Shown here: positions 25,702 to 43,540 of the stretch, in pieces | How the letters are laid out: each line of letters starts with the position of its first letter | How positions within the stretch are numbered: the stretch's first letter is position 1 | Assembly: GCA_902388495.1 (NCBI GenBank) | Contig: CABMPP010000002.1 | Coordinates: 1 to 64,000, forward strand | Direction: 5' to 3' | DNA from: an uncultured Bacteroides sp. | GTDB taxonomy: Bacteria > Bacteroidota > Bacteroidia > Bacteroidales > Bacteroidaceae | Length of the DNA: 64,000 bases | Notes under the pieces: model-generated | What the model was told of the DNA's origin: nothing | Databases searched by the model: none | What the model saw: only the letters and a program-made list of their open reading frames with translations | Made by a program: the position numbers and the translations under genes

Positions 25702-25759
25702 AGGCTTTTTACGTTTAAAAGATTCTTGATTTTCAGGTTGAAAGCGCCGAATTAGAAGT

Positions 25760-25847
25760 GAACGACTCCAGTCGGCCGATCGACCGACTCCAGTTGTTCG
25801 ATCGAACGACTTCAGTCGGTCAGCTGAACAACTCCAGTCGGTCACTT
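25760..25847. repeat. Four tandem 22-bp repeats in the leader of the HU-like gene
   Basis: Units begin at 25760, 25782, 25804 and 25826. Each contains a variant of CGACTCCAGTCGG and the junctions form palindromes such as GTTCGATCGAAC. The array sits between the minus-strand -7 element (25860-25867) and the start codon at 25701, so it would be transcribed. Confidence 0.9.
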
Positions 25848-25859
25848 CTAACTCACCGT

Positions 25860-25867
25860 CAAAGATA
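25860..25867 (-). promoter_or_regulatory. -7 element of the HU-like gene
   Basis: Minus-strand TATCTTTG, immediately upstream of the 22-bp repeat array. No other gene lies between 25702 and 26033. Confidence 0.55.
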
Positions 25868-26033
25868 GGATAAAAATAAGACATTTACACCTTAAAAGGC
25901 TATGTTTCTCACGACAAACATTTTTATAATAATTTTCAGGCAATCGCTTGCAAAACGCCTCCCGACAGTAGTAACTTCGTGGCATCGGTACCGACAAAAC
26001 TAAGTTTATAAATCATCAAAAAGAACAACTGAA

Positions 26034-26950
26034 ATGAGAAAAAAAACAATGACACTGGAACAACACTGCCTCCTGAGAGAGGTGAAACAACTGATAACAG
26101 ATTCCAAAGCAGACGGCAAACATGCCAAAGCAAAAACGATCCGTTCTGGACAAGAAGTTTCCATACCTGGATGCTTGCCCTGACCGCACAGTGGGCAGGT
26201 ATGCAGAACATACACGCCAACAGTGTAGCCCCCATCCTCGTCAGCAGCGAACAGGGACGGCAAAAATCCACCTTTTGCAAGGCATTGATGCCACCCGCTT
26301 TGCAGCGCTATTATTCCGACAACCTGAAACTGTCCGCACAAGGCAATCCCGAACGCCTGCTGGCAGAAATGGGACTGCTGAACATGGACGAGTTCGACAA
26401 ATACGGCGCCCGGAAGATGCCTTTGCTGAAGAATCTGATGCAAATGTCCAACCTCAACATCTGCAAGGCCTATCAGAAGAATTTCCGTAACCTGCCGCGC
26501 ATAGCCTCTTTCATCGGGACCAGCAACCGCTTCGACCTGCTCAGCGACCCCACCGGCAGCCGTCGGTTCATCTGCGTCGAAGTGAAGCATGTGATAGATT
26601 GCAGTAACATAGAGCACGGACAAATCTATGCGCAGCTGAAGGCCGAATTGCTGGCAGGGGCACGCAGTTGGTTTACGAAGGAGGAAGAACATGAGTTGCA
26701 GCGCCGCAATGCCGCCTTCTACCACACCCCTCCCGCCGAGGAAGTATTTCACACCTGCTTTCGCCCCGCCGCCCCCGAAGAGAAGTGCGAGCAGCTTTCT
26801 GCCGCCGATATATACAAAGCGTTGAAGACCCGCAATGCTGCCGCCATGCATGGCAGCAATCCGGCTACCTTCGGGCAGGTGCTCCTGGCAATCGGGGTAA
26901 AACGGAAGCATACCAAGTATGGGAATGTGTATCTGGTGGTGCGGCAATAG
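26034..26950 (+). pseudogene. Truncated, frameshifted VirE/DUF3874-type ATPase
   Basis: The intact frame from 26171 encodes the C-terminal part of the Bacteroides VirE-like family: SSEQGRQKSTFCKALMP (P-loop-like), LLNMDEFDKYG, NLPRIASFIGTSNR, DPTGSRRFICVEVK and a C-terminal DUF3874-like domain. The same frame continues upstream of that ATG as NDPFWTRSFHTW, which belongs to the family, so 26171 is not a true start. The ATG at 26034 opens another frame (MRKKTMTLEQ to 26183). The two join at an A5 run (26132-26136), where one extra A would restore a continuous frame. The usual N-terminal ~300 residues are absent. This looks like a decayed mobile-element gene. Confidence 0.7.
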
Positions 26951-26982
26951 AAGTCAGTACCGCTATATACCTGCTATTTCAC

Positions 26983-27065
26983 AATGAACTTTTTCGCAAG
27001 GAAACGATGATAGCCAAGCAATAAATCCTATCTTTGCGAAAAAGTTCGCATTGAAAAAGTTCGCA
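26983..27065. repeat. Inverted and direct repeats around an ATPase promoter
   Basis: The 13-mer GAAAAAGTTCGCA occurs directly at 27038 and 27053. An inverted, 2-base-shorter copy lies at 26983-26999. The -7 element TATCTTTG (27029-27036) is between them. Confidence 0.8.
27029..27036 (+). promoter_or_regulatory. -7 element of the first AAA ATPase
   Basis: TATCTTTG, 32 bp before the start codon and flanked by the repeats. The preceding 37 bases closely match the promoter at 29536-29572. Confidence 0.6.
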
Positions 27066-27067
27066 AG

Positions 27068-28159
27068 ATGGAAAACCCCTTTAAATTCGGTACAATAGTG
27101 GATGGTAGCTACTTCACAGACAGAGTGGAAGAGCAACAAAAAGTAAAGCAAGTCATATCGAGTGAGAATCATTTGATATTGATAAGTCCCCGTCGTTTTG
27201 GCAAGACAAGTCTTGTGCAAAAAGTAATGAAAGGACTCGCACGTCCGGTTTTTCAGTTGAACCTGCAGTTGGTGACAGACACGGAAGACTTTGCCTCCCA
27301 TCTGCTTAAGCAGGTGCTTCACAAATACCCTTTGGAACGTTTAAAACATTTGCTGTCTCATTTCCGCTTCATCCCTACCATTGCCACCAATCCGATGACA
27401 GACGGCATAGAGCTGTCGTTTCAGCCTTCTGTAGATAGTTTCGTGCTTTTGGAGGATGTTTTTACGCTTATTGATAGAATAGGTGAAAAGGGAGAAAAAC
27501 CGATTGTGGTCTTAGACGAGTTTCAAGAGGTAAAGACATTAGACAAGAATCTTGACAAGAAGATGCGTTCCATACTTCAGTTACATAGTCATGCCAACTA
27601 CATCTTTTTAGGCAGTCAGGAATCTATGATGGAGGAAATATTCGAGAAGAAGAAATCTCCTTTCTATCATTTTGGCTATCTGATGAAATTGAATAAAATT
27701 CCTTATGATGATTTCTTCCAGTTTCTGAAGAAAGGTTTTCTGTTGCTTGGTGGAGAGGCAGAAGTAGAGAATATGAGTCGGCAAGTGCTTTCGTTTACTC
27801 AATGCCACCCATATTATACTCAACAATTGGCTTTTCAGGTTTGGGCACTTTGGCAGCAGAAAGGGTATGCAGATACATTGGTGCCCGATGCAATTCTCCA
27901 GTTGACGCAAGTGCACGATATGGATTACGAACGGTTGTGGGCAACTTTTAACCGTACCGACAAGAAAGTCTTGATAGGTTTGAATATGAACCTCGGCTCT
28001 CCTACCAGTTCTTCTTTTCTTAGAAAACAAGGCATAGAATCTTCCAGCACAGCTTTCAGTAGCTTGAAGCGATTGAGTAAACTGGGCTATGTCATCAAGA
28101 ATGATGTGTATGAAATGGATGATCCTTTCTTTGCACAGTGGATTATGAATCACAGGTAA
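27068..28159 (+). CDS. AAA-type ATPase (archaeal-ATPase-like, STAND-related)
   Basis: Protein of 363 aa with Walker A SPRRFGKTSL near residues 40-49, Walker B PIVVLDEFQEV near residues 144-154, sensor region NYIFLGSQ, and a C-terminal winged-helix-like part (SSTAFSSLKRLSKLGYVIKND). This family is numerous and variable between Bacteroides strains, and its function is generally unknown. It converges on a second, unrelated-type AAA gene. Low G+C compared with the flanking core genes is consistent with horizontal gain. Confidence 0.82.
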   Translation: MENPFKFGTIVDGSYFTDRVEEQQKVKQVISSENHLILISPRRFGKTSLVQKVMKGLARPVFQLNLQLVTDTEDFASHLLKQVLHKYPLERLKHLLSHFRFIPTIATNPMTDGIELSFQPSVDSFVLLEDVFTLIDRIGEKGEKPIVVLDEFQEVKTLDKNLDKKMRSILQLHSHANYIFLGSQESMMEEIFEKKKSPFYHFGYLMKLNKIPYDDFFQFLKKGFLLLGGEAEVENMSRQVLSFTQCHPYYTQQLAFQVWALWQQKGYADTLVPDAILQLTQVHDMDYERLWATFNRTDKKVLIGLNMNLGSPTSSSFLRKQGIESSSTAFSSLKRLSKLGYVIKNDVYEMDDPFFAQWIMNHR

Positions 28160-28175
28160 CCATAAAAAAACAGCA

Positions 28176-29378
28176 TCAATACAGGAAACCGAAAAGCCAA
28201 AGAGGAACTCTGTTTCCTGTACCGTATTCCACACCATCTATTGCCAAATAGCTATCAGGGATATCTTTTACCTGCTCAAAGGTCTTGTATTTCCCACCCA
28301 CTTCAAACGTATAAGTATCGTCTATCCTAAAGTCTCCCTGCCCGGAGAATGCTATTTGATGGTTCTGTTTCAATTGATTGGCAAAGAATGTTTCACGGAT
28401 GTTACCGATATCTGAAGTTGGAGAAAGCGCATACATCAGATTGGTATTATCCAAATAAACTTTCTCCGGCTTGGCAAGCTGCTGCATATTGCTCTTCCCG
28501 GAATATAGCGTAATAAGCAAGGCTGCGCGTTCCAGAATCTGAAACATGCGGACTACCGACTGGCGTGTCGTTTCTATACTCTCGCCCACCTTAGTCATAT
28601 TAGGTGTAAAAGGAACCATCTGCGAAAGAATTACCAACAAACGCTTCATCTTTTTGATAGAAACATATTCTACCTTTTCTACAGCAGGCAAATCATTTTC
28701 AAGTATAGTAGTGACAACTTGTTGCAGCCGCAGTGGATAAGAAGCAGGAGCTTCCTTGTAGAAAGGATAATAACCATGCTTCAAGTATTCCTCAAATAGC
28801 GGAATAATTGTAACCTGCGAAACTACATCCGATGCAATCGCCAGATGTTCCTTCAATATCTGCTCTAAAGTGAAAGCAGGAAAGACACCTTTCTCTTCAA
28901 ATGCCAAAAACTCTCTGAACGATAGTCCTTGAAGAGTATAAAAAACACATCTACGAGACAAATCGGCTAACGAAAAATCTATTTGCAATAAGGAAGAACC
29001 GGTAAATACGATATGAAGGCCTGGATAACGATCATAAATATTCTTTAGTTCCTGTATCCAGTTATCATAAGGATAGCGATGCACTTCATCTACAAACAGA
29101 TGTGTTCCACCATGAAGGAAGTGATATTCTGCCAGGTCTATCAACCGATGTTCCGTGAACCAAAGATCATCCAAAGATATATAGACAGCTTGTTCTGTCT
29201 TAGGAAACAACTGCTTGATGCGTTGCAGCATAAGCGTAGTTTTTCCAACGCCACGCGCTCCTTTTATACAAATCATACGCGAGTCCCAATCTATTGCATC
29301 ATACAAGTAACGGATGTGGGACATGCCAACCGAATTGACCAAACGGGTAGAATTAATATAAATGTCTGTTATTTCCAT
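28176..29378 (-). CDS. AAA_14/DUF4143-type ATPase
   Basis: Protein of 400 aa from MEITDIYINS. Walker A is GARGVGKTTLML near residues 38-49 and Walker B LFVDEVHRYP near residues 94-103; VFTGSSLLQID is a sensor-like motif, and the C-terminal half resembles the DUF4143 nuclease-like domain (LDNTNLMYAL, then DYTFEVGGK-type ending). The start is placed 20 codons inside the open frame because a TAnnTTTG element (29405-29412) overlaps the longer version. Upstream lie repeated AAAAACGTG-TTTACAGATAAC motifs. The role is unknown; these genes are common in accessory regions. Confidence 0.8.
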   Translation of the reverse strand: MEITDIYINSTRLVNSVGMSHIRYLYDAIDWDSRMICIKGARGVGKTTLMLQRIKQLFPKTEQAVYISLDDLWFTEHRLIDLAEYHFLHGGTHLFVDEVHRYPYDNWIQELKNIYDRYPGLHIVFTGSSLLQIDFSLADLSRRCVFYTLQGLSFREFLAFEEKGVFPAFTLEQILKEHLAIASDVVSQVTIIPLFEEYLKHGYYPFYKEAPASYPLRLQQVVTTILENDLPAVEKVEYVSIKKMKRLLVILSQMVPFTPNMTKVGESIETTRQSVVRMFQILERAALLITLYSGKSNMQQLAKPEKVYLDNTNLMYALSPTSDIGNIRETFFANQLKQNHQIAFSGQGDFRIDDTYTFEVGGKYKTFEQVKDIPDSYLAIDGVEYGTGNRVPLWLFGFLY

Positions 29379-29404
29379 CTTTACACACTTATTATTTGTA
29401 AAGG

Positions 29405-29412
29405 CAAAGATA
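29405..29412 (-). promoter_or_regulatory. -7 element of the DUF4143-type ATPase
   Basis: Minus-strand TATCTTTG, 27 bp before the chosen start codon. Confidence 0.6.
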
Positions 29413-29424
29413 AGAAATGTTTTT

Positions 29425-29500
29425 TGTAAAGCACACATTTACTCCAAAAACGTGCTTTACAGATAACGTTTATGCGAGAAAAACGTGTTTTACAGATAAC
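29425..29500. repeat. 22-base direct repeat plus inverted half-sites
   Basis: Copies at 29446-29467 and 29479-29500 differ at one base and share AAAAACGTG and TTTACAGATAAC. TGTAAAGCAC at 29425-29434 is the exact inverse of GTGCTTTACA at 29452-29461. They lie directly upstream of the minus-strand ATPase promoter. Confidence 0.85.
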
Positions 29501-29599: not shown

Positions 29600-31327
29600 A
29601 TGAACCTACGCTTAATACTTGTATCAATACTTACTATCTTGCTTGCTGCCTGCACAACACGACCCGACTACAATAAAGTGTTGGTACAAGCAGACTCACT
29701 AATGATATCACGACCCGACAGTGCGCTGCACTTGCTGAAAGATTACGCAGTAAATAACTTAAAAACAAAGGCAGACAAAGCCTATTATGCACTACTGCTG
29801 ACGGAAGCACAGGATAAAAACTACATTCAGCAAACGGATGATTCACTGATACGGACAGCCGTGCGCTACTATGACGCACAAGAGGATGCCGCTATGCAGG
29901 CGCGAGCATATTACCTTTGGGGAAGCGTTTACCGAGACAAGAACAAACAAGCAGAAGCTGTAGAGAAATATCTCAAGGCGACCGGTTTTGCACAAAAAGC
30001 AGAAGACAAAGCATTACTTGGACGAATATACGCCAATGCGGGCTACATTTATTACCTGCAAGAGTTCTATGAAAAAGCAGATTCCGCTTATAGGCAAGCT
30101 GAGCAAATAGGTCTCCAGCTAAGAGACACTTCCCTTTGGATTTCAAGCCTCACCATGCAAGGAGAAATGCAACTTTATCAGAAGCACTATCTGCAAGCAG
30201 AAGAAAAACTGCGGCAAGCGCTAAAGATTTCAAAAGGCTTTAAACAGAATGAGATAAAAGCAGGCATTTATTCTGCACTAAGTTCGCTATATGCCAGAAC
30301 CGGAAAAGACTTGAAATCACTACACTATGCCAAGCAGAACTTCAGCCTGCAAAGAGACACAATGCATTGTTATCGCACTTTCTTGAAATTAGGAGACGCT
30401 TATTACCAAACGGGACAATACGACTCGGCCACCATATATATAAGGAAAAGCTTGTCATCACCCAGTCATACCACTAAAGCCGGAGCATATATGCGCCTGG
30501 CTGATATCGCAAAAGCTCAAGGCGATGTCGCACTGTCTCTTAACATGGAACGACTATATTCAGCCTATAAAGACAGTGCAAACTTATCTCGGCAAAAAGC
30601 CGAAATCATAGAAGCCGAACAAACCATAAAGATACAACATCAACGGACACGACACGAATATTACTTGAAAGAATATCGTTATTACATCCTCATTTTGATA
30701 CTCATTGGTATTCTAAGCATTTGTCTACTACGAAAGCGCTATCTGAAGAAACTCAACAGACAAAGAGAAAAAAACCTCTTAAAAGAAAGAGAGCTGCACC
30801 AACAATACCTTTTATCGAAAGAAGAAACGAAACGGAAAGAAGAACAAATAGCCATCTTGCAACAAAAAATTGAACAGCACTACTTAGACGAAGTTCAAAA
30901 AGAACAAATGCAGAAGAAACTAAAGGAATTGAACAAGCAACACACCTTGCTGCTAAAGAAAACGCTGCAATATTCCGATGTCTATACCAAAATGAAACGA
31001 ATTATTTCAGACTACAGAGAATACAGGAAGTCCAAGGAATCATTAACAGACGACGAATGGAGTAGATTCATGGTAGAAACAGATAAAAGCGGCTTTCTCC
31101 TGAAACTGGCCGCCGAACATAAACTTAATAAAAAGGAAATCTATTATTGCCATTTACTATTAGCCGACTTTTCTATAGAGGAAAGAATGCTGATTTTGCA
31201 AATTGCCCGTGCCACTATCTATCGGATAGAGCAACAAATCTTTCAGAAAATAGGCGTCCCCTATCAGGCAAAAGAATTACCCAAGCTACTAAGAGGCATA
31301 ATAAGCAGCGTTTCTACCAATGTATGA
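29600..31327 (+). CDS. TPR lipoprotein with membrane helix, coiled coil and C-terminal regulatory domain
   Basis: Protein of 575 aa with a lipobox-like LLAAC18, tetratricopeptide repeats over about residues 30-320, one membrane helix at 361-378, a Lys/Glu-rich coiled coil at about 380-455, and a C-terminal helical domain (residues 480-570; KLNKKEIYYCHLLLADFSIE, then QIARATIYRIEQQI) that resembles a degenerate helix-turn-helix. Bacteroidales carry many such TPR-membrane-HTH proteins next to peptide export loci, where a one-component regulator role is presumed. It heads the peptide secretion cluster. Its stop codon overlaps the first ATGAGACA box upstream of the next gene, suggesting it may act there. 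Confidence 0.75.
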   Translation: MNLRLILVSILTILLAACTTRPDYNKVLVQADSLMISRPDSALHLLKDYAVNNLKTKADKAYYALLLTEAQDKNYIQQTDDSLIRTAVRYYDAQEDAAMQARAYYLWGSVYRDKNKQAEAVEKYLKATGFAQKAEDKALLGRIYANAGYIYYLQEFYEKADSAYRQAEQIGLQLRDTSLWISSLTMQGEMQLYQKHYLQAEEKLRQALKISKGFKQNEIKAGIYSALSSLYARTGKDLKSLHYAKQNFSLQRDTMHCYRTFLKLGDAYYQTGQYDSATIYIRKSLSSPSHTTKAGAYMRLADIAKAQGDVALSLNMERLYSAYKDSANLSRQKAEIIEAEQTIKIQHQRTRHEYYLKEYRYYILILILIGILSICLLRKRYLKKLNRQREKNLLKERELHQQYLLSKEETKRKEEQIAILQQKIEQHYLDEVQKEQMQKKLKELNKQHTLLLKKTLQYSDVYTKMKRIISDYREYRKSKESLTDDEWSRFMVETDKSGFLLKLAAEHKLNKKEIYYCHLLLADFSIEERMLILQIARATIYRIEQQIFQKIGVPYQAKELPKLLRGIISSVSTNV

Positions 31328-31373
31328 GACATGTCTCATGCTAAATGAGACAAATTACACCCAAAATGAGACA
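31324..31373. promoter_or_regulatory. Three ATGAGACA boxes at 21-bp spacing
   Basis: ATGAGACA occurs at 31324, 31345 and 31366, exactly 21 bp apart. The first is part of the perfect palindrome ATGAGACATGTCTCAT (31324-31339). The last ends 7 bp before the -33 TTTG at 31381, a position suited to an activator. Confidence 0.75.
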
Positions 31374-31380
31374 TTTTCTA

Positions 31381-31413
31381 TTTGACAAATACAAAAAAAT
31401 CACACTAACTTTG
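31381..31413 (+). promoter_or_regulatory. Promoter of the peptide export operon
   Basis: TTTG at 31381-31384 and TAACTTTG at 31406-31413 have the consensus Bacteroides spacing. The ATG at 31436 follows by 22 bp. Confidence 0.7.
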
Positions 31414-31435
31414 CCATAACAAAAAACAAAGAAGC

Positions 31436-31861
31436 ATGAAACGAATCTTATACCTAACAGCTTTAGCTTTGCTCTTTATAATAACGAGCACAACAACTTC
31501 CAAAGCCGAAGAACTCGTTAATAACAGCAGAGAGATTACACTCACTGTAACCCAAGATGACACAAGAGATTTAGGGCAAGGACATGATGTGGAACCGGAC
31601 GATATTAAAGTACCCCGTAGCATCATTCTTCAACCTGCTTATGCTTATCTATATAATAATGTGGTAAGTCTTGATTTCACTGAGACATTCTCTGCTGTCA
31701 TCGTCACTATAACCAATAATGCAACCGGTGAAACCGTCTATTCAGAGACCTGTAGCAACCCTGCCACTCTTAACATAGACCTAAGTAGTGAAAGCAGTGG
31801 GAACTATCTCATTGAGATAGAAGCAGATGACACCCGATTGGAAGGAAATTTCTCTCTATAA
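31436..31861 (+). CDS. Secreted DUF3244 protein
   Basis: Protein of 141 aa with a signal peptide (residues 1-24, ending SKA-E). The mature part has a short acidic linker and a beta-sandwich of about 85 residues (SIILQPAYAYLYNNVVSLDF, then VIVTITNNATGETVYSE, then GNYLIEIEAD) typical of DUF3244. Members are small periplasmic or surface proteins of unknown role, often coded near TPR regulators in Bacteroides. Here it is the first gene behind the ATGAGACA-controlled promoter, 24 bp before the VKOR fusion. A receptor or immunity role is possible but unsupported. Confidence 0.75.
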   Translation: MKRILYLTALALLFIITSTTTSKAEELVNNSREITLTVTQDDTRDLGQGHDVEPDDIKVPRSIILQPAYAYLYNNVVSLDFTETFSAVIVTITNNATGETVYSETCSNPATLNIDLSSESSGNYLIEIEADDTRLEGNFSL

Positions 31862-31885
31862 CAACATTAATATTTAGAATCACTT

Positions 31886-33427
31886 ATGACGGCAGTTGAT
31901 AACACCGGCATCGTTCTTTATCGCTATTTGCGGGCTTTGTCCGTAAAAGTGAGCCGGAGCACTGTGTCCCGCCTGCTCGATACCCCCGTAGGCAGTAGCA
32001 TACGGGGTGTCAGCGATGCACTGGACGCACTGCACATAAAGAACGAGGTGTATCAACTCCCACCGTCACCCGATTACTTTTTCCAATTGGATGCACCCTT
32101 CATCACAATGCTGCAAGTGGACAAAAATCCATTCTGCGTAGTGACAAAAAAGGACGATTTCATCGTAGAATTCTCCCGTTCGGAGGGCAGAACGCAATGC
32201 ATAAAAGTGGACACTTTTCTGAAGAAATGGGCAGGAACAGTGCTACTGGGAGAAACTACCGGAGAAACTCCTTCCGATTCTTTCTATATCTGGAAGAACA
32301 TCGGCTACCGCCTCTTTAAGTTTAAAGCCGTAATTGCCCTATTCTTAATCTTGGCTTTGGGTTTTCTCTGTACGTTCCGACAAGAATATTCCCCAACCTT
32401 AATTGCTTATTTAGCAACATTAAGCCTTGGCATATTTGTATCCATTGCCATTATCTATAAAGAACAGTTCAATGACAGCTTTCTGGAACGTTTCTGTCAT
32501 ATCGGGCGAGCAGTGGACTGTAATAAAGTACTCCGTTCCAAGGGAGCAAACATAGCAGGAGTAAGTTTAGGAGAACTTTCCTTACTCTATTTCTCCACTT
32601 TATTCCTTTTCAGTACTTTGTGCCCAACGGACTTCTACGGTATAGCCTCCCTTTGTTGTGCGGCAGCCCTTTGCTTCACCCTCTATTCCGTCATCTATCA
32701 AATTTTCATCTTCCGCAAAGGTTGCATGCTCTGTATGCTGGTGAACATTACGATATGGATAAGTGCCGCTATACTCTACGGAAGCAGTCGCAATCTGACA
32801 TTCCCAATTTCTTTGTCTGCTTTATCAACGTTAGCAGCTATCGGATGTATTTGTTTGATTACCGGAATATCCATAAAGGCTTTACTCAAAGACCGCAAAG
32901 AAAAAATTGCATTGCAACGTAGGATAACATCCTTACTAAAGCCTGAAGTATTTCAACGCTTGCTACCGATCGAAGCACATATAGAAAAACCGATAGCAGC
33001 GGAATTAGCTTTATCAAATCAAGGCGGGAACAGCAATCGCCTGATGATTGTCACTAATCCGAATTGCGGAAACTGCGCTAAAGTACACCGGCATATCAAG
33101 GAACTCGCATCAGCCGTTCCCATGGCAATGGTGTTACTGACTTTTCCGAACGACAAAGTGGGTGAGCACGTTGCACAGACCATCATCACAGCCTACCGGG
33201 CGGAAGGATGGCAGCGCGCCATGCAAATGCTGGAAGAGTGGTATAAAAACAAACGGATAAGCGAAGCGGACAAATATCCCGTTACTCCCGAAGCCGAACA
33301 GATTTGGAGAGAGCAGCAGGAGTACTGCCGGAAGCAAGGGATAAACAAAACCCCCGTTGGTATAGTTGCTGGGTATTATATATCGGATGTATATCCGCTA
33401 TCGGAATTAAAATATGTATTAACATAA
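31886..33427 (+). CDS. C39-like / VKOR / thioredoxin fusion protein
   Basis: Protein of 513 aa with three parts. Residues 1-125 look like a peptidase-C39 fold but lack the DCGPTCL-type catalytic Cys and the catalytic His (NPFCVV stands where HFVVV is expected), so this part may only bind leader peptides. Residues 140-340 form a vitamin-K-epoxide-reductase-like membrane domain with loop cysteines C204 and C212 and the CxxC pair C280/C283. Residues 375-510 form a thioredoxin-like domain with CGNC (C394/C397). The protein should create disulfides, probably in the two-Cys peptide encoded 90 bp downstream. All redox cysteines are intact. Confidence 0.82.
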   Translation: MTAVDNTGIVLYRYLRALSVKVSRSTVSRLLDTPVGSSIRGVSDALDALHIKNEVYQLPPSPDYFFQLDAPFITMLQVDKNPFCVVTKKDDFIVEFSRSEGRTQCIKVDTFLKKWAGTVLLGETTGETPSDSFYIWKNIGYRLFKFKAVIALFLILALGFLCTFRQEYSPTLIAYLATLSLGIFVSIAIIYKEQFNDSFLERFCHIGRAVDCNKVLRSKGANIAGVSLGELSLLYFSTLFLFSTLCPTDFYGIASLCCAAALCFTLYSVIYQIFIFRKGCMLCMLVNITIWISAAILYGSSRNLTFPISLSALSTLAAIGCICLITGISIKALLKDRKEKIALQRRITSLLKPEVFQRLLPIEAHIEKPIAAELALSNQGGNSNRLMIVTNPNCGNCAKVHRHIKELASAVPMAMVLLTFPNDKVGEHVAQTIITAYRAEGWQRAMQMLEEWYKNKRISEADKYPVTPEAEQIWREQQEYCRKQGINKTPVGIVAGYYISDVYPLSELKYVLT

Positions 33428-33432
33428 AGATA

Positions 33433-33449
33433 TTGGTTTCGCGAACCAA
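33433..33449. promoter_or_regulatory. Small hairpin before the peptide gene
   Basis: TTGGTT and AACCAA flank TCGCG. It lies in the 89-bp gap between the VKOR fusion and the peptide gene. Its role is unknown; mRNA processing is possible. Confidence 0.4.
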
Positions 33450-33516
33450 GCAGGAGATTAAGGGACGCCAAGAATCTCAAGTTAACTTAATTATTAATCT
33501 TAAAATAATTCGTATT

Positions 33517-33717
33517 ATGAAAGATTTTGCTAAATTTGAAGCATTTAGACTTGAAAAGAGTCAGATGGCTAAAGTAAGTGGAGGTGTAACCTGCCAAGTA
33601 TATTACAGCGATGGAATGGGAGGTTCTTTTGCTCAATCTTACGATACTACTGATGCAAAGGCTATGCAGGAAGCTTTACAGAAACAACATCCGGATGGAA
33701 AAGCCTCTTGTTGGTAA
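33517..33717 (+). CDS. Double-glycine-leader secreted peptide with two core cysteines
   Basis: Peptide of 66 aa starting MKDFAKFEAF. The leader ends QMAKVSGG (residues 1-23), the classic double-glycine processing signal with hydrophobic residues at spaced positions. The predicted core is 43 aa, begins VTCQVYYSDGMGG and ends KASCW, with Cys at core positions 3 and 42, so one disulfide could close almost the whole chain. The start at 33517 is chosen because it gives a normal leader; the open frame extends upstream to 33304 within the previous gene. It is followed by a thioredoxin, a C39 exporter and an adaptor. A class-II-like bacteriocin or signalling peptide is likely; no immunity gene was recognised. 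Confidence 0.85.
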   Translation: MKDFAKFEAFRLEKSQMAKVSGGVTCQVYYSDGMGGSFAQSYDTTDAKAMQEALQKQHPDGKASCW

Positions 33718-33755
33718 CAAGTGCCCGTTACAATCTACGTAACTTGCCAAAGAAT

Positions 33756-33785
33756 TCGGGGAAGATGGTTATCCCTTTTCCCCGA
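33756..33785 (+). terminator. Stem-loop between the peptide and thioredoxin genes
   Basis: TCGGGGAA (33756-33763) pairs with TTCCCCGA (33778-33785), with an inner GAT/ATC pair. No T-run follows, so it may protect or partly terminate the peptide mRNA rather than end the operon. Confidence 0.45.
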
Positions 33786-33819
33786 TATTTACAACAATTT
33801 CACAACAACATACAACGTC

Positions 33820-35028
33820 ATGAAATATTTTATTTATTTATTCGCAGTGCTAATGTTCTCCTTTGGATTTCATCCTAACGAAACTTCCAAAGACAAAGAG
33901 TTAGTGTACAAAAACACGAAAGTGATTCTAAATGTAGATGATTATATTTGCAGCGAAGATCAGTGGGTATATGTTCATGACTATAAATGTTGGATTTCCG
34001 GAAATGAACATTTTTTTTTCGATTCGGCGTTTATTGCAAAAGGTCAACACCAAGTAGAACTCAACTTTAAAATTCCGTGTGCTATAAAAGCTAGATTATC
34101 ATTTTCCAAAAATGGCCCTTTGGATCTTGGATTTGTAGCAGAGCGAGACTCTTGTCTTATTCTGAATATAGATGAATCTTCTCCTTATCTAAATATTGAT
34201 TGCTGCATAAAGGCAGTTCAAGGAACTCTACATAACTTCTTCTACAAATTGACTCAAGAAACTAGTAAGTTTAGAAACAAGATACAACTTTACGCAGAAA
34301 AAGATCAGATAGACAGTATTCGCATATTAAGTGACCATTACCTTCAGCAGCTAACAAAGTGTATAGATGAAACAACTGAACCTGCAGTAGCATACGAGTG
34401 TCTTGCAATTATGAAATACGTTATTCCGGGTGTAAATACAAGTGAACTCTTTCCTAAATATGCTTCGAAATTTGATTGGTATCCTGCCCTAAAATCATTT
34501 TATGATCCATCGGCTGTCGTACCGCCTTCCGAAGAAGCCCGAAAATCATCTGCCCGATATGGAAAGTTACGTAAAGAAAGAATGCAATGTACTCTGATAA
34601 ATAAAGATTTAGGCAATCATTTGGACTTAACCTTTAAAGATGTCAATGGAAAGGAAATTGCCACCAAGGATATTAGCACTCCCTATATATTTGTGGATTT
34701 TTGGGCAAGTTGGTGCAGGCCTTGCAGAAAAGAAATTCCCAACATAAAACAGGCTGTAGCCAAATATAAAGATGACCTGACCATTTATGCCGTTTCTTTG
34801 GACAATAAACGGGAGGCTTGGCAAAAAGCCATAAAGGAGGACAGCACTCAAGAATTCCTGCAAGTGATAGGAACTCTCCGAAACGAGTCACCCACACTCC
34901 TGCTGAGACAACTGGACATACAAACAATTCCCGCAAACTTCTTGCTGGATAAAGAAAGGCGCATTGTAGCCAAAGACTTACGTGGTGAACAACTGATGCA
35001 AACACTTGACAGCCTTATCAATCAATGA
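33820..35028 (+). CDS. Periplasmic TlpA-like thiol-disulfide protein
   Basis: Protein of 402 aa from MKYFIYLFAV with an N-terminal signal peptide. Residues 25-250 are a DUF4369-like or unassigned beta-rich/helical region with several Cys. Residues 262-400 form a thioredoxin domain with FWASWCRPCRKE (C299/C302) and the cis-Pro segment IQTIPANFLLD. It likely reduces or isomerises disulfides of exported substrates, working with the VKOR fusion. Codon use is AT-rich compared with the exporter that follows. Its stop overlaps the start of the exporter by four bases (ATGA). Confidence 0.85.
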   Translation: MKYFIYLFAVLMFSFGFHPNETSKDKELVYKNTKVILNVDDYICSEDQWVYVHDYKCWISGNEHFFFDSAFIAKGQHQVELNFKIPCAIKARLSFSKNGPLDLGFVAERDSCLILNIDESSPYLNIDCCIKAVQGTLHNFFYKLTQETSKFRNKIQLYAEKDQIDSIRILSDHYLQQLTKCIDETTEPAVAYECLAIMKYVIPGVNTSELFPKYASKFDWYPALKSFYDPSAVVPPSEEARKSSARYGKLRKERMQCTLINKDLGNHLDLTFKDVNGKEIATKDISTPYIFVDFWASWCRPCRKEIPNIKQAVAKYKDDLTIYAVSLDNKREAWQKAIKEDSTQEFLQVIGTLRNESPTLLLRQLDIQTIPANFLLDKERRIVAKDLRGEQLMQTLDSLINQ

Positions 35029-37211
35029 AATCTTTCCCCCATTACATCCAGCACGATGTCATGGATTGCGGCCCCACCTGCCTACGTATGGTCTCCGCCT
35101 TCTACGGAAAGCGTTATTCATTGGAAGGATTGAGGGAAAAGTCATTCATCACCCGCGAAGGAGTCTCCATGCTGGGTATCAGCGAAGCGGCGGAGAAACT
35201 CGGCCTGCGGAGCATCTGCGTGCAAGTAAGTTATGAAATGCTGCTGGAAGCTCCCCTGCCCTGCATCGTGCATTGGAACCAGCAACACTTCGTAGTAGTC
35301 TACCGAATAAACAGCAAGCATGTTTGGGTAGCTGACCCCGGGGCAGGGAAACTGAAATATACCCGTGAAGAATTCTGCCGTTGCTGGCTGAGCGCAAAGA
35401 AAGACGGAGAAGACACGGGAGTGGCATTATTGCTGGAGCCGACACCGGAATTCTACATCATGGAAGATGAAGGAGAAGCGGTGAACTATAAAGGTTTCGG
35501 CTTTCTGTACTCATACCTAAAACCTTACAAACAACTGGTGGGGCAACTGCTATTGGGCTTGTTGCTGGGCAGCATGATACAACTTATGCTGCCCTTCCTC
35601 ACGCAGAGCATCGTAGATTTCGGTATTAACAACCAGAATCTCGGCTTCATCTATCTGGTACTCATCGCTCAACTGATGCTCACCTTCAGCAGCAGCGCCG
35701 TAGAGTTCATCCGAGGATGGATATTGCTGCACCTGGGCACACGCATCAACATCGCCCTTATCTCCGATTTCCTTATCAAACTGATGAAGCTCCCTATGGG
35801 ATACTTCGACACCAAAATGACGGGCGACATCCTGCAACGCATCAACGACCACACCCGCATACAAAACTTCCTGACAGGAAGCAGCCTCAGCGTAGTGTTC
35901 TCTACCTTCAACATCGTGATATTCGGCATTGTACTGCTGGTGTACAGCGGCATGATATTCCTTATCTTCATGGGAGGAAGCGCCCTCTACATAGCCTACG
36001 TATGGCTCTTCATGAAGAAGCGCGCGGAGCTGGACCACAAGCGTTTTGCACAACAAAGCGCCAACCAGAGCACCGTAGTGCAACTGGTGAACGGAATGCA
36101 GGAAATAAAGCTGAGTGCCTGCGAGAGGCAGAAGCGCTGGGAATGGGAGCGCATCCAGGCGCGGCTGTTCAAAGTAAATATCAAAAGCCTTGCCTTGAGG
36201 CAATATCAGGATTCGGGAGCAGTGCTCATCAACCAGACAAAGAATATCGTGATTACAGGTTTGGTGGCCTCGCTGGTGGTGCAAGGACAAATGACGCTGG
36301 GTATGATGCTTTCCGTGCAGTACATCATCGGGCAGCTGAACAGCCCGATAAACGACCTCATCGCCTTTGCCCGTGACATGCAAGACGCACGCCTCAGCAC
36401 AAACCGGTTGAGCGAGGTACGGGACAAGCCCGACGAGGAAGATCCGGCAAAGGAGTTGATAAGGGAGATACCTATAGGGAAAGACCTCAGGATAGAAAAA
36501 CTAAGCTTCAAATATGATCCGCTGAATGAAACACCCACGCTGGACAACATCAGCCTGGATATAGGATCGGGCAAGCAGACCGCCATCGTAGGCATGAGCG
36601 GGAGCGGAAAAACCACATTGGTAAAACTGCTGCTGGGGTTCTATCCGCCTGCAAGCGGGCAAATATTGCTGGGCGATATACCTTTGGAGAACTTCAGCAT
36701 CAGGGAGTGGAGAAAACGCTGCGGCGTAGTGATGCAGGACGGCTTCATCTTCTCGGACAGCATCGCGGGAAACATTGCCCCCGGAGTGGAGCACATCGAC
36801 AAGGCACGGTTGCAGCATGCGGCAGAAGTGGCGAACATACAGGGATTTATCGGAGACTTGCCGCTGGGCTACAATACCCGGATAGGCCAGGAAGGACACG
36901 GACTGAGCCAGGGGCAGAAGCAGCGTATTCTCATTGCCCGCGCCGTATACAAGAATCCGGAATTCATCTTCTTTGATGAAGCCACCAACGCACTGGACGC
37001 CAACAACGAACGCATCATCATGGAGAACCTGCAAAAGTTCTTTGAAGGAAGAACATCGGTAATAGTAGCCCATCGGCTGAGCACTGTGCGCCATGCAGAC
37101 CGGATCGTAGTAATAGAACAGGGACGGATAGCCGAAGAGGGAACACATGAGGAACTGATTGCAAGGGAAGGAAGATATTACAAGCTGGTGAAGAATCAGT
37201 TGGAGCTATAA
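35025..37211 (+). CDS. Peptidase-containing ABC transporter (C39-ABC exporter)
   Basis: Protein of 728 aa, the standard length for bacteriocin-type peptidase-containing ABC transporters. The C39 protease domain (1-130) has Gln9, Cys15 in MDCGPTCL, His88 in QQHFVVV and Asp104 in WVADP. About six membrane helices span 160-440. The ATPase has Walker A GMSGSGKTT near 523, an LSQGQ signature near 626 and Walker B FIFFDEATN near 647. It should cut the leader after Gly-Gly and export the core across the inner membrane. Its substrate is most likely the 66-aa peptide encoded upstream. It lies 10 bp before the adaptor gene. Confidence 0.95.
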   Translation: MKSFPHYIQHDVMDCGPTCLRMVSAFYGKRYSLEGLREKSFITREGVSMLGISEAAEKLGLRSICVQVSYEMLLEAPLPCIVHWNQQHFVVVYRINSKHVWVADPGAGKLKYTREEFCRCWLSAKKDGEDTGVALLLEPTPEFYIMEDEGEAVNYKGFGFLYSYLKPYKQLVGQLLLGLLLGSMIQLMLPFLTQSIVDFGINNQNLGFIYLVLIAQLMLTFSSSAVEFIRGWILLHLGTRINIALISDFLIKLMKLPMGYFDTKMTGDILQRINDHTRIQNFLTGSSLSVVFSTFNIVIFGIVLLVYSGMIFLIFMGGSALYIAYVWLFMKKRAELDHKRFAQQSANQSTVVQLVNGMQEIKLSACERQKRWEWERIQARLFKVNIKSLALRQYQDSGAVLINQTKNIVITGLVASLVVQGQMTLGMMLSVQYIIGQLNSPINDLIAFARDMQDARLSTNRLSEVRDKPDEEDPAKELIREIPIGKDLRIEKLSFKYDPLNETPTLDNISLDIGSGKQTAIVGMSGSGKTTLVKLLLGFYPPASGQILLGDIPLENFSIREWRKRCGVVMQDGFIFSDSIAGNIAPGVEHIDKARLQHAAEVANIQGFIGDLPLGYNTRIGQEGHGLSQGQKQRILIARAVYKNPEFIFFDEATNALDANNERIIMENLQKFFEGRTSVIVAHRLSTVRHADRIVVIEQGRIAEEGTHEELIAREGRYYKLVKNQLEL

Positions 37212-37221
37212 GTGGGAGTGG

Positions 37222-38517
37222 ATGGAAAAAGAGACGAAAGACATAGAATTGAGATGCGAGGAAGTGCAGGAGATACTGACACGACCGCCGCATACGCTGA
37301 TACGGTGGGGCATCACGGTGTTCTTCATCGTGCTGGCCCTCTTCTTTATCGGCGGCTGCTTCTTTAAATATCCCGACGTGATAAGCGCCCCGGTCACCAT
37401 CACCACGGAGCATCCGCCCGTATGGATTGTGGCACGGGGAAACGGAAAGATAAAAGAAGTGTATCACAAGGACCGGGATTCGGTATGGACCGAAGACATC
37501 ATTGCCGTGCTCGAGAATCCGGCTGCAACGGAAGATGTGCTGCTGCTGAAAAAGGAATTGGATGCCTTCAGCCCGGCAGACAGCAGCGTATGCACAAAGT
37601 TGTTTCCCGAAAGACTGATATTGGGAAGCATACAGAATGCATACGCCTCATTCCTGAAAAGCCTGACGGATTACCGGAATTTCCTTTCGCTGGACCTCTA
37701 TAAGCAGAAGATAGAGGCCACCCGAAAAGAATTGCAGGAATACCGGAACTACATAGCCCACCTGAAAAAGCAGGCGGAACTGGATAAGGAGCAGGTGCAG
37801 ATAGCCGAGACTTCGCACCGCAGGGAAAAGAAACTCTTCGACGAAGGGCTGACCGCACAGTCGGAATACGAAGAAGCCAAACAGACCTTCCTGAACAAAC
37901 AGCAGGGGCGGGAGCAGTTAATGACTTCCCTCTCGTCCGCCAAAATACAGGAAGCGCAACTGCAACAGAACATCGTAGAAACCCAAATGGAGCAAAGCCG
38001 CGAAGCCAACAACCTGCTGACGGCATTGAAGGCCGCCCGCAATGAGTTACAGGTCAGCATCAACGACTGGGAACTGGCATATCTGTTCACGAGCCCGGCA
38101 AGCGGCATACTGTCCTACAACAATATCTGGCAAAAGAACCAGAACGTCAACAGTGGAGACAAGGTATTCTCGATAGTGGCACAGGAGACAGGGGACATCA
38201 TCGGAAAGATAAAACTCCCCGTCGGCGGTTCGGGAAAAGTGATGCCCGGTCAGCGGGTGAACATCAGTGTAACGGGTTATCCGTACATGGAATTCGGCTT
38301 CCTCACAGGCAAGGTTATGTCTGTCTCCCTGCTGGCAGATGACGAGAGTACCTATACCGTCACCATAAGCCTGCCGCAGGATTTACGCACTTCATACAAC
38401 AAGACGTTGGAGTTCAAAGGAGAAATGACTGGCACAGCGGAGGTGATGACAGACGAACGGAGCGTAACCGAGAGATTGCTCAGTCCGCTACGCTATTTGT
38501 GGGAGAAGTATTTATAA
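37222..38517 (+). CDS. HlyD-family periplasmic adaptor
   Basis: Protein of 431 aa with one N-terminal membrane helix (about 32-52), a barrel-sandwich domain (VWIVARGNGKIKEVYHKDRD), a long coiled-coil hairpin at about 140-280 and a second beta domain (SGILSYNNIW, GQRVNISVTGYPYMEFG). It should link the C39-ABC exporter to an outer-membrane channel. No TolC-like gene is in the cluster, so a shared TolC elsewhere is implied. Last clear gene of the secretion operon. Confidence 0.9.
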   Translation: MEKETKDIELRCEEVQEILTRPPHTLIRWGITVFFIVLALFFIGGCFFKYPDVISAPVTITTEHPPVWIVARGNGKIKEVYHKDRDSVWTEDIIAVLENPAATEDVLLLKKELDAFSPADSSVCTKLFPERLILGSIQNAYASFLKSLTDYRNFLSLDLYKQKIEATRKELQEYRNYIAHLKKQAELDKEQVQIAETSHRREKKLFDEGLTAQSEYEEAKQTFLNKQQGREQLMTSLSSAKIQEAQLQQNIVETQMEQSREANNLLTALKAARNELQVSINDWELAYLFTSPASGILSYNNIWQKNQNVNSGDKVFSIVAQETGDIIGKIKLPVGGSGKVMPGQRVNISVTGYPYMEFGFLTGKVMSVSLLADDESTYTVTISLPQDLRTSYNKTLEFKGEMTGTAEVMTDERSVTERLLSPLRYLWEKYL

Positions 38518-40517: not shown

Positions 40518-41594
40518 ATGAGATTCTATATTTCCCTATTACTGTTAGTATTTCTTCCTTCTGTTGGTTATGCCATCAATGACAGCTTACAGATAGAAGC
40601 CGATAAATATATGCAGGCACAACAGTATGAAGCGGCTGCAAAGTTATACGAAGAGATCGGGAATAAATCGGATTCCGCTTACCAAGAGGCAAACTCAAAA
40701 AAAATAAATGACCTACGCAAGGCTTATTCCATCAAAGAACTGGAGCTTGCCAATAAGCAACAACAAAATCATATCCTGCTACTAGCACTAATCATTCTGC
40801 CTATCGGCATTTTTATTGCCGTCGGCAGCATCATCTTCCTGAGCAAACAAAGAAAGAAACTCACCCTCTCGCAACGGAAACTCCAAGAGGCGCAGAAGGA
40901 AGTGGAAAAATCCATATACAATAAAAGCCTGTTCCTGTCGAATATGAGCCACGAGATACGCACTCCTTTGAATGCGTTGTCCGGCTTCTCGGATATACTG
41001 ACGACTCCGGGCATCGACGAAGAAACACGCAAACAATGTAATGACATCATCCAGCTGAACTCCCGCTTGCTGTTGAATTTGGTAAACGACATAGTGGACA
41101 TCTCCTGTCTGGACCTGACGAACATAAAGTTTAACCTCACAACGTGCGATGCAATTCCTCTTTGCGAAGGCATCATCCAGACACTGGAAGGCATCAAGCA
41201 AACACAGGCGGAAATCTCTTTCGAATCGTCACTTTCCGCACTGGAGATAGAAACCGATACCATGAGGCTGCATCAAGTGCTCATCAACATATTGGTGAAT
41301 GCAACAAAGTTTACCAAAGAGGGCAGCATCGTCTTGGGACTTGAACTGAACGAACAGGGCATGGCCCAGTTCTCCGTGACCGACACCGGCTGCGGCATTC
41401 CGCCGGAGAAACAAGGCAAGATATTCGAACGCTTCGAGCGCGTCAATGAGAAGGCACAGGGAACAGGACTCGGTCTGTCCATCTGCCAACTTATCATCAC
41501 CCGTCTCGGAGGGGAAATTTGGATCGATCCGGAATACACAGACGGATGCCGTTTCGTCTTTACTCATCCTTTAAAGCAGGAGGAAAAGAAATGA
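40518..41594 (+). CDS. Sensor histidine kinase, active-type
   Basis: Protein of 358 aa with a signal peptide (to about Ala19), a short TPR-like helical region (22-80), a membrane helix (85-108), a coiled linker and a complete kinase core. FLSNMSHEIRTPLNAL carries His145, then the N-box NILVNATKFT, G1 DTGCGIP and G2 GTGLGLSI. No receiver domain is attached. It overlaps the following pseudo-kinase gene by four bases (ATGA), so the two products probably work as a pair. A cognate regulator is not visible nearby. Confidence 0.9.
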   Translation: MRFYISLLLLVFLPSVGYAINDSLQIEADKYMQAQQYEAAAKLYEEIGNKSDSAYQEANSKKINDLRKAYSIKELELANKQQQNHILLLALIILPIGIFIAVGSIIFLSKQRKKLTLSQRKLQEAQKEVEKSIYNKSLFLSNMSHEIRTPLNALSGFSDILTTPGIDEETRKQCNDIIQLNSRLLLNLVNDIVDISCLDLTNIKFNLTTCDAIPLCEGIIQTLEGIKQTQAEISFESSLSALEIETDTMRLHQVLINILVNATKFTKEGSIVLGLELNEQGMAQFSVTDTGCGIPPEKQGKIFERFERVNEKAQGTGLGLSICQLIITRLGGEIWIDPEYTDGCRFVFTHPLKQEEKK

Positions 41595-43540
41595 AGAAAG
41601 CAATACTCATCCTCCTATTTTTGAACGCCGTTCTTTGCGGAGGAAAGATACAAGCATCAGAATCCGACACTGATCAGTCACGCGACAGCATCTTCCGGGT
41701 AGCTGCCTCGCAGCCTAACGACACATTGCGTTCCAAGTTCCTCAGGGGGATATTCGAACAGCAAATCAGCCGGGAATCGGCTATGGAATATCTGGATTCG
41801 GCGTACGCACTCAGCATCAGGAAGCAGTTGAATACTGAAGAACTATGGGCACTCTTCGACTATTGCCGCCGCTATGAATTCTGCAGCGACATAGTCAATA
41901 TGGATAAGTATCTTCAACTGCTGAAAGATGCCAGCAGCCGATATAAGATATATACATTTTACTATACTGCATGGATGGCGATGCTCCAGATGCGATGTAT
42001 GCAGGGAGACACCGAGTACGCCATCCTGGAAGCCAAAAAAGTGCGTGAAGAAGCCGCTTCCTTAAAACAAGAGAACGGCGTTTTCATCGCTTCCCTTGCA
42101 TTGGCGCAGGCATATTACTTTGCCAAACAAGATAAAGACGCCATCGAAGTCTACGAACGGGTTTTAAAAGAAAATCCCGACGCAAACAACAACGCATTGT
42201 TGTCTATTTACGGCAGACTGGCCGAACTCTATAAAAAAGAAAAGAAGTATCCGGAAGCTCTTCATAAATTGCAGCAACGACTTGATGTAATGAACAAGAT
42301 AAGTGGAGGAGCTCCGCTATCGGATACGTACAGAAGTGTATTCTTAGGAATAGAGAATGCGTTCTGCACCATCTATATGGAAACCGGAGATAGAGAAAAG
42401 ATGAGACAGCATCTGGAACAGGCCCGGAAATATTGCGATGAAAGCAGTTTCTTTGCAGGGATGATGGACTATTATGCTTTGTGGGGAGATTACTATCGAC
42501 TCAACAAAGAGTGGGACAAGTCTCTCGCAGAATTCGACCGGGCGCTTTCTATATGTCGGGAAACGGCCCCCCTCCGCACAAACAATATACTCAAAATGAA
42601 AGCGGGAACCCTCATGGAAAGTGGCCGTTATAAAGAAGCTGCCGAAATATATCGGGTAGCCGCCCAAAAGAGCGACTCCCTCAACCGGGACATCATACTC
42701 CGCCACGAAGAGACTTATGACGCCAACTATACGATACAAAATGCACTGCTTCAAAAAGAAGAACTAAAGAAAGGATATCGACTCGGACAAGTAATTACCG
42801 CCGGCATCATTCTAATCTTTTTAATTGTCGTCATAGTCCGCGCCATACATTTAAGAGAATTGTTGCACCGCTCGGAAAAGCAGACCCGCGAAGCGTTCGA
42901 AATGATGAAAGCCTGCGACAAAATGAAGGAGCGCTTTTTGCATAACATCACCTTCGAGATACGCATACCGCTGAATAGCGTAGTGGGTTTCTCCGAATTG
43001 TTGTCTTCGGAAAGTGGTTTGCAGGAGAGCGAAATAGAGGAATATTCGCTTGCAATAAAAAAGAATTCCATCAAGTTGCTGGCATTGATTAACAATATCC
43101 TCGATTTATCGCGCCTGGAAGCCGGCATGATGCGCTTCAATGTGCAGGAATGCGACATCGTACAACTTTGCAAAGAAGCCAAAATGATGATAAACATGCA
43201 GTTCCCTCAAATCGTAGAACTGAACTTCCGAACAGACTTGGAGGAATTGATGATCCAAGCGGACAGCAAATGGTTTCTGAAGTTACTGACTGCTCTCTTC
43301 TCCGTCCCCGGAGATTATACAGGGGAAGGGTGCAAAGTAGAATATACATTAAGTAAAGCCGGCAAATATCTGACTGTTGTTGTGAAAGGAAGCCCGCTCT
43401 ACCAATGCTGGGAGGATGAACAAGAACAACGCATCCTGCACGACATAAACCGCCTGTATGTGGAAACTTTCAAAGGGAGCTATCGGGTACTTGGAAAAGA
43501 AAATGAGAAGATAGTAGATATTACCTATCCTATCTCCTGA
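41591..43540 (+). CDS. TPR sensor with a degenerate histidine kinase domain
   Basis: Protein of 649 aa from MKKAILILLF. A signal peptide is followed by TPR helices at about 45-375, a membrane helix at 400-417 and a DHp-like region. The H-box reads HNITFEIRIPLNSV, so Phe455 replaces the phospho-acceptor His of SHEIRTPLN. The ATPase part lacks N-, G1- and G2-box motifs (LLTALFSVPGDYTGEG stands where the N-box would be). It cannot be an ordinary kinase and may act as a regulatory partner for the active kinase coded just before it. The start is set by the ATGA overlap; an upstream ATG at 41519 lies inside the previous gene. Confidence 0.8.
   Translation: MKKAILILLFLNAVLCGGKIQASESDTDQSRDSIFRVAASQPNDTLRSKFLRGIFEQQISRESAMEYLDSAYALSIRKQLNTEELWALFDYCRRYEFCSDIVNMDKYLQLLKDASSRYKIYTFYYTAWMAMLQMRCMQGDTEYAILEAKKVREEAASLKQENGVFIASLALAQAYYFAKQDKDAIEVYERVLKENPDANNNALLSIYGRLAELYKKEKKYPEALHKLQQRLDVMNKISGGAPLSDTYRSVFLGIENAFCTIYMETGDREKMRQHLEQARKYCDESSFFAGMMDYYALWGDYYRLNKEWDKSLAEFDRALSICRETAPLRTNNILKMKAGTLMESGRYKEAAEIYRVAAQKSDSLNRDIILRHEETYDANYTIQNALLQKEELKKGYRLGQVITAGIILIFLIVVIVRAIHLRELLHRSEKQTREAFEMMKACDKMKERFLHNITFEIRIPLNSVVGFSELLSSESGLQESEIEEYSLAIKKNSIKLLALINNILDLSRLEAGMMRFNVQECDIVQLCKEAKMMINMQFPQIVELNFRTDLEELMIQADSKWFLKLLTALFSVPGDYTGEGCKVEYTLSKAGKYLTVVVKGSPLYQCWEDEQEQRILHDINRLYVETFKGSYRVLGKENEKIVDITYPIS

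Follow-up and report, generated by a model that had tools for sequence, protein, structure and literature searches.

A seven-gene Bacteroides locus predicted to oxidise and export an acidic disulfide-stabilised mini-protein, with an apparently exchangeable peptide cassette

The DNA analysed here (the window) is a stretch of 64,000 nucleotides from an uncultured Bacteroides sp. (contig CABMPP010000002.1), and it carries seven consecutive genes on the plus strand at 29600–38517. Open reading frames and Pfam matches revealed these genes in the order and with the domains claimed in the initial annotation: a TPR membrane regulator, a DUF3244 protein, a C39-like/VKOR/thioredoxin fusion, a double-glycine (GG)-leader peptide, a TlpA-like thioredoxin, a C39-ABC exporter, and a HlyD adaptor (Table 1). 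The TlpA-like and exporter genes overlap by four bases and the exporter and adaptor genes are separated by 10 bases; thus, the seven-gene run reads as one operon. A promoter-like site, for which we take −33/−7 to be the Bacteroides consensus, sits between the TPR gene and the DUF3244 gene. The peptide start was corrected to ATG 33517, and for the TlpA-like gene ATG 33820 is a more probable start than GTG 33721, as judged from the sequence.

Table 1. Features of the seven-gene unit and its candidate regulatory elements (TM, transmembrane segment; aa, amino acids)
Feature	Coordinates	Strand	Details
TPR regulator	29600..31327	+	Pfam TPR_2 2.3e-10; lipobox-like/signal N terminus (LLAAC); TPR superhelix; one TM; predicted one-component regulator of the unit
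Candidate operator	31324..31373	+	ATGAGACA x3 at 21-bp spacing, plus one inverted copy
Promoter-like site, Bacteroides-type	31381..31413	+	TTTGAC 31381-31386, 19 nt, TAACTTTG 31406-31413; read by eye
DUF3244 protein	31436..31861	+	Pfam 1.7e-16; signal-peptide-like N terminus; one Cys; solved relative 3sd2, E 4.4e-12
C39-like (non-catalytic)/VKOR/thioredoxin fusion	31886..33427	+	Cys pairs 204/212, 280/283, 394/397
Structured spacer	33433..33478	+	hairpin 33433-33449; hairpin GAGATT 33454-33459 / AATCTC 33473-33478; just 5' of peptide gene
GG-leader precursor peptide	33517..33717	+	66 aa; 23-aa leader ending SGG; 43-aa core, two Cys, net charge -2
TlpA/ResA-like secreted thioredoxin	33820..35028	+	Thioredoxin_8 7.4e-16; WCRPC; N-terminal part ~280 aa; short type, peptide's partner
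C39 peptidase-containing ABC exporter (PCAT)	35025..37211	+	Peptidase_C39 3.8e-34 plus ABC domains
HlyD-type periplasmic adaptor	37222..38517	+	HlyD_3 1.7e-08

The exporter is similar over its whole length, including the C39 domain, to PCAT1 (4ry2, E 5.3e-106) and ComA (8hf4). It contains the ABC permease and ATPase and a C39 cysteine and histidine, which we take to be the catalytic residues within the segments QHDVMDCGPTC and HFVVVY. Unlike PCAT1 and ComA, it is accompanied by a HlyD adaptor, belongs to a Gram-negative envelope, and has a dedicated oxidase encoded alongside. VKOR–thioredoxin oxidases are characterised by a VKOR CxxC, a loop cysteine pair, and a thioredoxin CxxC. The window fusion, which has five hydrophobic segments, shares these cysteine motifs, including all four cysteines of the VKOR family (active-site CxxC and loop pair), and differs by an extra N-terminal C39-like domain. 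Across an alignment of 22 fusion proteins (18 of the close kind and 4 distant), all 22 contain both CxxC motifs (VKOR and thioredoxin) and the second loop cysteine, and 21 contain the first loop cysteine, which is phenylalanine in the protein of locus L100. The catalytic C39 cysteine segment and histidine are absent from the N-terminal domain in 22 of 22; therefore, this domain should not be a protease. In HlyB a C39-like domain serves docking, and by analogy the fusion perhaps consists of a docking domain joined to an oxidase. In the window fusion, Pfam matches VKOR at 3.6e-10, and the C39 (0.0019) and Thioredoxin_2 (0.00076) matches both fall under the cut-off.

The precursor has the GG leader and two-cysteine core that had been proposed for it. 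The leader length of 23 residues compares with 21–23 in relatives, and the computed monoisotopic mass of the core is 4702.05 when reduced and about 4700.0 with one disulfide. The cysteine number is even in all 23 precursors compared. A profile search found 96 relatives, of which 89 could be separated into leader and core. Two cysteines occur in 81 of these and four in 2, and the rest have one (3), three (2), or none (1); at least two of these exceptions, P0040 and P0049, are mis-cut by the leader/core rule. By charge, 80 cores are acidic, 6 neutral, and 3 basic. In pairwise comparison, the 87 relatives whose leader has 23 residues average 0.72 identity over the leader and 0.21 over the core. 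Leader identity reaches 90% or more in 277 pairs, and in 166 of these the cores share less than 35%. A structural model of the peptide (pLDDT 67.5, pTM 0.43) has a helical leader and a β-β-α-β core whose first and last strands carry the two cysteines; a structure search with this model returned nothing at E ≤ 0.001 (best E 1.3). In one database protein, P0042, a peptide core is fused to the C39-like beginning of a VKOR fusion, which represents either a natural deletion or an assembly error.

A scan of a genome collection with the fusion, a single-protein query that reaches close relatives only, revealed eight relatives, all Bacteroides. Among 149 members of the genus, 38 had a fusion match at E ≤ 0.001 and 18 had a close fusion, that is, at least 36% identity over a long stretch as judged from the match table (G001–G008, G048, G061, G073, G077, G084, G100, G107, G117, G143, and G146). 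The fusion, peptide, TlpA, and exporter genes are contiguous in 13 of these 18 genomes (G001, G002, G003, G005, G006, G007, G061, G073, G084, G100, G107, G117, and G143; the exporter of G107 is cut by a contig end and is still counted), which excludes a neighbourhood in which the exporter never occurs with the peptide. Of the remaining five, G008 (L061 3138–4679) has a broken exporter gene and retains peptide and fusion, the contig of G146 runs out, and only TPR–DUF3244–VKOR modules were seen in G004, G048 (on a short contig), and G077. Across the wider order, matches were found in 12 of 247 genomes, and only that of G006 is close. Where the gene is present, identity to the window is 86–91% for the exporter, 73–83% for the adaptor, and 51–69% for the fusion (L001–L007), and 35–47% for the DUF3244 protein (L001–L008) and 36–42% for the TPR protein (L002–L008). 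The recurrence of the order across species argues against a chance arrangement and, together with the joint occurrence of exporter and peptide, supports the earlier claim of one unit that would make, oxidise, cleave, and export a small cysteine-containing peptide.

The TlpA-like partners fall into three types: a short type (392–438 residues), a long type (462–495 residues, plus a 572-residue frame in L061 that continues into the broken exporter gene there), and a third type (493–494 residues, plus one partial protein of L105). The nearest relative of every partner belongs to its own type (23/23). In the 19 cassettes with a complete adjacent partner, TlpA type and cysteine number agree without exception: two-cysteine peptides accompany the short type (10/10), four-cysteine peptides the long type (7/7), and six-cysteine peptides the third type (2/2). 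This count excludes L105a, whose partner is cut by a contig end, and the peptide-less partners L003.2, L007.2, L099.2, and L105.0. Comparison between L003 and L006 revealed identities of 81% (TPR), 71% (DUF3244), 89% (VKOR), 97% (TlpA), 96% (ABC), and 94% (HlyD), and of 21% in the peptide core; L003 also retains a second TlpA, of the L006 type, which is not preceded by a GG peptide. Similarly, the L100 and L101 VKOR proteins are 79% identical, the cores are 21% identical, and the TlpA types differ. From these two comparisons, peptide and TlpA partner appear to move together, transferring jointly as a cassette while the flanking genes stay. Two other exporter loci in the same genomes, L042 and L046, are arrays of several cassettes, in which GG peptides are paired not with TlpA but with six-bladed β-propeller proteins in L042 or GLPGLI proteins in L046 (two tested at each locus).

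In many loci the gap between the fusion and peptide genes contains a hairpin followed by an apparent H-type pseudoknot. Over 11 aligned rows, 87.9% of cells pair, and changes on both sides occur in 4 of 11 pairs (2/500 shuffles); the covariation score was reached by 0/500 shuffles, structures slid along the alignment pair in 23–47% with no double change, and the number of further pair types was not above shuffles (201/500). A model built from these rows (R1) matched 14 places in 51 sources at E ≤ 1e-8, namely the 11 source rows, a second copy of one, and two new places, one preceding a second GG peptide gene in L102 and the other a TlpA gene in L099. Ten whole genomes (150 candidates scored per genome) gave at least 14 matches, one of them new and, by eye, before a TlpA copy. 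The model was found 5′ of 10 of the 20 peptide genes compared, and the element, a hairpin with a probable pseudoknot, occurs in the spacers of L001, L003, L006, L007, and L099–L103. Since a pseudoknot scan of single spacers against shuffles was weak (2/20 at p ≤ 0.05), the element rests on co-variation. R1 does not match the window spacer, which folds as two main hairpins and a weaker third, and Rfam gave no match in the window at the gathering score. Frameshifting or read-through from VKOR into the peptide was ruled out by spacer lengths without a common frame (window 89, L002 77, L003 92, L007 91, L099 94, and L100 96 nt). The L099 and L002 spacers contain an apparent relic of the VKOR 3′ end, hinting at cassette duplication.

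The TPR protein has hydrophobic segments at residues 1–19 and 359–377, and in its AlphaFold2 model (pLDDT 81.4, pTM 0.50) a TPR superhelix is followed by a long helix that includes the TM segment and by a helical bundle at the C terminus. Of the TPR/helix-turn-helix (HTH) membrane regulator named in the initial annotation, the TPR repeats and the TM segment stand; Pfam recognised no HTH in the window copy or in those of L002, L007, and L039. Borderline HTH matches occur in other relatives, to GerE (L104), sigma region 4 (L103), Xre-like (L003 and L006), and TrmB (L101) families; the GerE match of L104 scores 22.9 bits against a cut-off of 23.5, and the window copy and seven of eight other copies gave no GerE match. 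A DNA-binding role is thus predicted for the C-terminal part from related copies, the structural model, and the operator test described below. RRNPPA/RNPP regulators are defined by an N-terminal HTH and a cytoplasmic TPR domain. The window protein resembles them in linking a TPR sensor to a DNA-binding-like domain and differs in that this bundle is C-terminal, with the TM segment intervening; its sensor is probably extracytoplasmic.

Just 5′ of the promoter-like site, the window carries copies of ATGAGACA at 31324–31331, 31345–31352, and 31366–31373, and an inverted one at 31332–31339. In most other loci a different short word stands at the matching place with an exact 11-bp pitch. An exact hexamer repeated at 11 bp was found 5′ of DUF3244 in 15 of 18 representative regions (23/26 of all regions), whereas 1000 dinucleotide shuffles averaged 0.51 and never exceeded 4; among controls it was found in 0/14 regions upstream and 1/14 downstream of VKOR and in 3% of 2000 random 115-base windows from those loci. 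The exact test was framed after output of a one-mismatch repeat search had been viewed, and was then run with shuffles and controls; counts allowing one mismatch mostly showed no excess over shuffles. For 21 loci with repeats, operator similarity correlates with similarity of the last 110 TPR residues (r 0.81) and of the N-terminal part (r 0.71). The partial correlation is 0.59 for the C-terminal given the N-terminal part (0/2000 permutations) and 0.18 for the reverse (172/2000). Because it persists for the C-terminal part only, this part most likely reads the repeat array.

Among known systems, the bacteroidetocins (class IIf) are closest in kind. Passages of PMC6671954 describe loci of four genes (a 5-TM protein, the peptide, a thiol oxidoreductase, and a C39-ABC protein, in this order) with leaders of 15–16 residues, and bacteroidetocins A and B with four cysteines and basic cores. 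The likeness suggested earlier holds for the GG leader, the C39-ABC exporter, the small core with at least two cysteines, the thiol oxidoreductase, and the Bacteroidales host. It fails for leader length, for charge (the two-cysteine core here is acidic), for gene order, and for gene set: the window unit adds the VKOR/thioredoxin fusion, DUF3244, the TPR regulator, and HlyD. A separate gene for a 5-TM protein was not seen among the seven, although the VKOR fusion has five hydrophobic segments. By leader length and gene set, the window peptide, as read from its sequence, is not a bacteroidetocin. Some clusters in a survey of ribosomally synthesised and post-translationally modified peptides (RiPPs) of Bacteroidales (PMC10352776) list membrane fusion, outer membrane, and TPR genes; the main text of that survey nowhere uses the terms VKOR, vitamin K, thioredoxin, DUF3244, or HlyD. 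The B. thetaiotaomicron genes BT2221 (DUF3244) and BT2225 (DsbA family), listed in part of PMC10434189, perhaps form a related locus, and a passage of PMC4573289 mentions a Bacteroides cluster with transporter and HlyD-like genes in which no peptide was found. Among the papers listed by searches of the open literature, no title or abstract opening gives an account of the seven-gene set. New here are the locus-specific 11-bp operator of most loci other than the window, which tracks the C-terminal domain of the regulator rather than its sensor, the match between cysteine number and TlpA type, and the cassette swaps.

Several features adjoin the unit. An AAA_14 ATPase gene (28176–29438) is divergent from the TPR gene, and the direct repeat ACGTGCTTTACAGATAAC (29450–29467)/ACGTGTTTTACAGATAAC (29483–29500) lies between the two, 5′ of the TPR gene. 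An HU-HIG gene, a VapE-like/DUF3874 gene, and an AAA ATPase gene at 25063–28159 possibly mark an island boundary. Two histidine kinase genes, the second with TPR repeats, lie downstream at 40518–43540.

We consider it reasonably probable that the unit serves to export an acidic mini-protein stabilised by disulfide bonding, and that it belongs to a family of Bacteroides operons with exchangeable cargo. By sequence comparison the gene unit is real, conserved, and modular, and the mechanism is supported by family membership and co-variation. In the membrane-bound TPR protein, the TPR domain would lie outside the cytoplasm, and the C-terminal domain would bind a locus-private short-repeat array before DUF3244 and switch the operon, as the statistical operator link in related loci suggests. 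The precursor, with its conserved leader, would be cut after Gly-Gly by the C39-ABC exporter, and the core would leave through HlyD and an outer-membrane channel encoded elsewhere, as expected from the exporter family. The VKOR/thioredoxin fusion may make the disulfides, with its inactive C39-like domain probably binding either leader or exporter and so coupling oxidation to export. The TlpA-like partner, matched to the cysteine pattern of the peptide, may correct or chaperone that pattern. Regulator, oxidase, and exporter would remain in place while peptide and partner are exchanged together as a cassette, which is what a secreted effector under diversifying selection should show. The product is predicted to be such an effector, most likely directed against competing Bacteroidales, which is the least certain step.

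Several observations weigh against this interpretation. No HTH family was matched in the window TPR C-terminal domain, and the window operator, at 21-bp spacing, lies outside the correlation test. Three of the 18 representative regions (window, L001, and L049) have no 11-bp repeat, nor do seven of eight regions 3′ of more distant TPR genes (L057 has an 11-bp repeat, L058 a 12-bp repeat, and L042, L043, L044, L047, L048, and L049 neither; L049 counts in both sets). The loci share ancestry, so that counts and permutations refer to non-independent events. The peptide model is of low confidence, and the cores are mostly acidic, whereas those of bacteroidetocins A and B are basic. The description of the unit as self-contained proved too strong: Pfam recognised neither a TolC-type outer-membrane channel gene nor an immunity gene among the seven genes, the C39-like domain is catalytically dead, and intact TPR–DUF3244–VKOR modules stand without adjacent peptide or exporter in L004, L005, L095, L097, L107, and L108 and in the upstream halves of L039–L041 and L096. 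The oxidase may therefore have another client.

The peptide could alternatively be a pheromone: once exported and oxidised, it would be detected on the extracytoplasmic side by the TPR domain of the regulator that heads its own operon. Regulator and peptide indeed lie within one unit, and the TPR model resembles, among many TPR folds, the quorum sensors Rap and NprR (ranks 33, 36, and 47), although LGN-type and designed TPR structures outrank them. This proposal lost weight in the comparisons of identity: the L003 and L006 cores are 21% identical, yet the sensor parts are 82% identical, and between the window and L003 the TPR part is 50% and the DNA-binding part 29% identical, the opposite of co-variation with a ligand. 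We regard it as unlikely. Equally unlikely is a folding-stress module, in which the TPR protein would detect periplasmic protein that is unfolded or reduced, the response would come from DUF3244 and the VKOR fusion, and the peptide–exporter half would be a passenger. The modules without adjacent peptide and exporter speak for it, those of L095 and L097 being intact and 89–96% identical to that of L004, but the exporter half directly follows in 13 of 18 genomes, and even cysteine numbers are the rule among the peptides. A modified RiPP of the TIGR04149 kind, with which the precursor shares a Bacteroidales GG leader, is highly improbable, since the weak match (15.4 bits, E 0.013) lies under the curated cut-off of 25 bits and no radical SAM or other known RiPP-modifying family occurs among the seven genes.

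Beyond the export operon itself, the family may form, as we suggest tentatively, a Bacteroides arsenal of exchangeable secreted acidic disulfide mini-proteins on a common oxidise-and-export chassis, in which an inactive C39-like domain would pass the leader to the exporter, each cargo would have its own thioredoxin-type foldase, and each locus would be insulated by a membrane one-component regulator reading a private operator, typically of 11-bp pitch. If so, Bacteroides would possess a large hypervariable set of secreted mini-proteins with a predictable export route, and for a class of membrane regulators the DNA target could be deduced from the sequence just behind the regulator gene. With oxidase, cargo-specific thioredoxin, and exporter linked, disulfide making during ABC-driven export would become testable in one operon.

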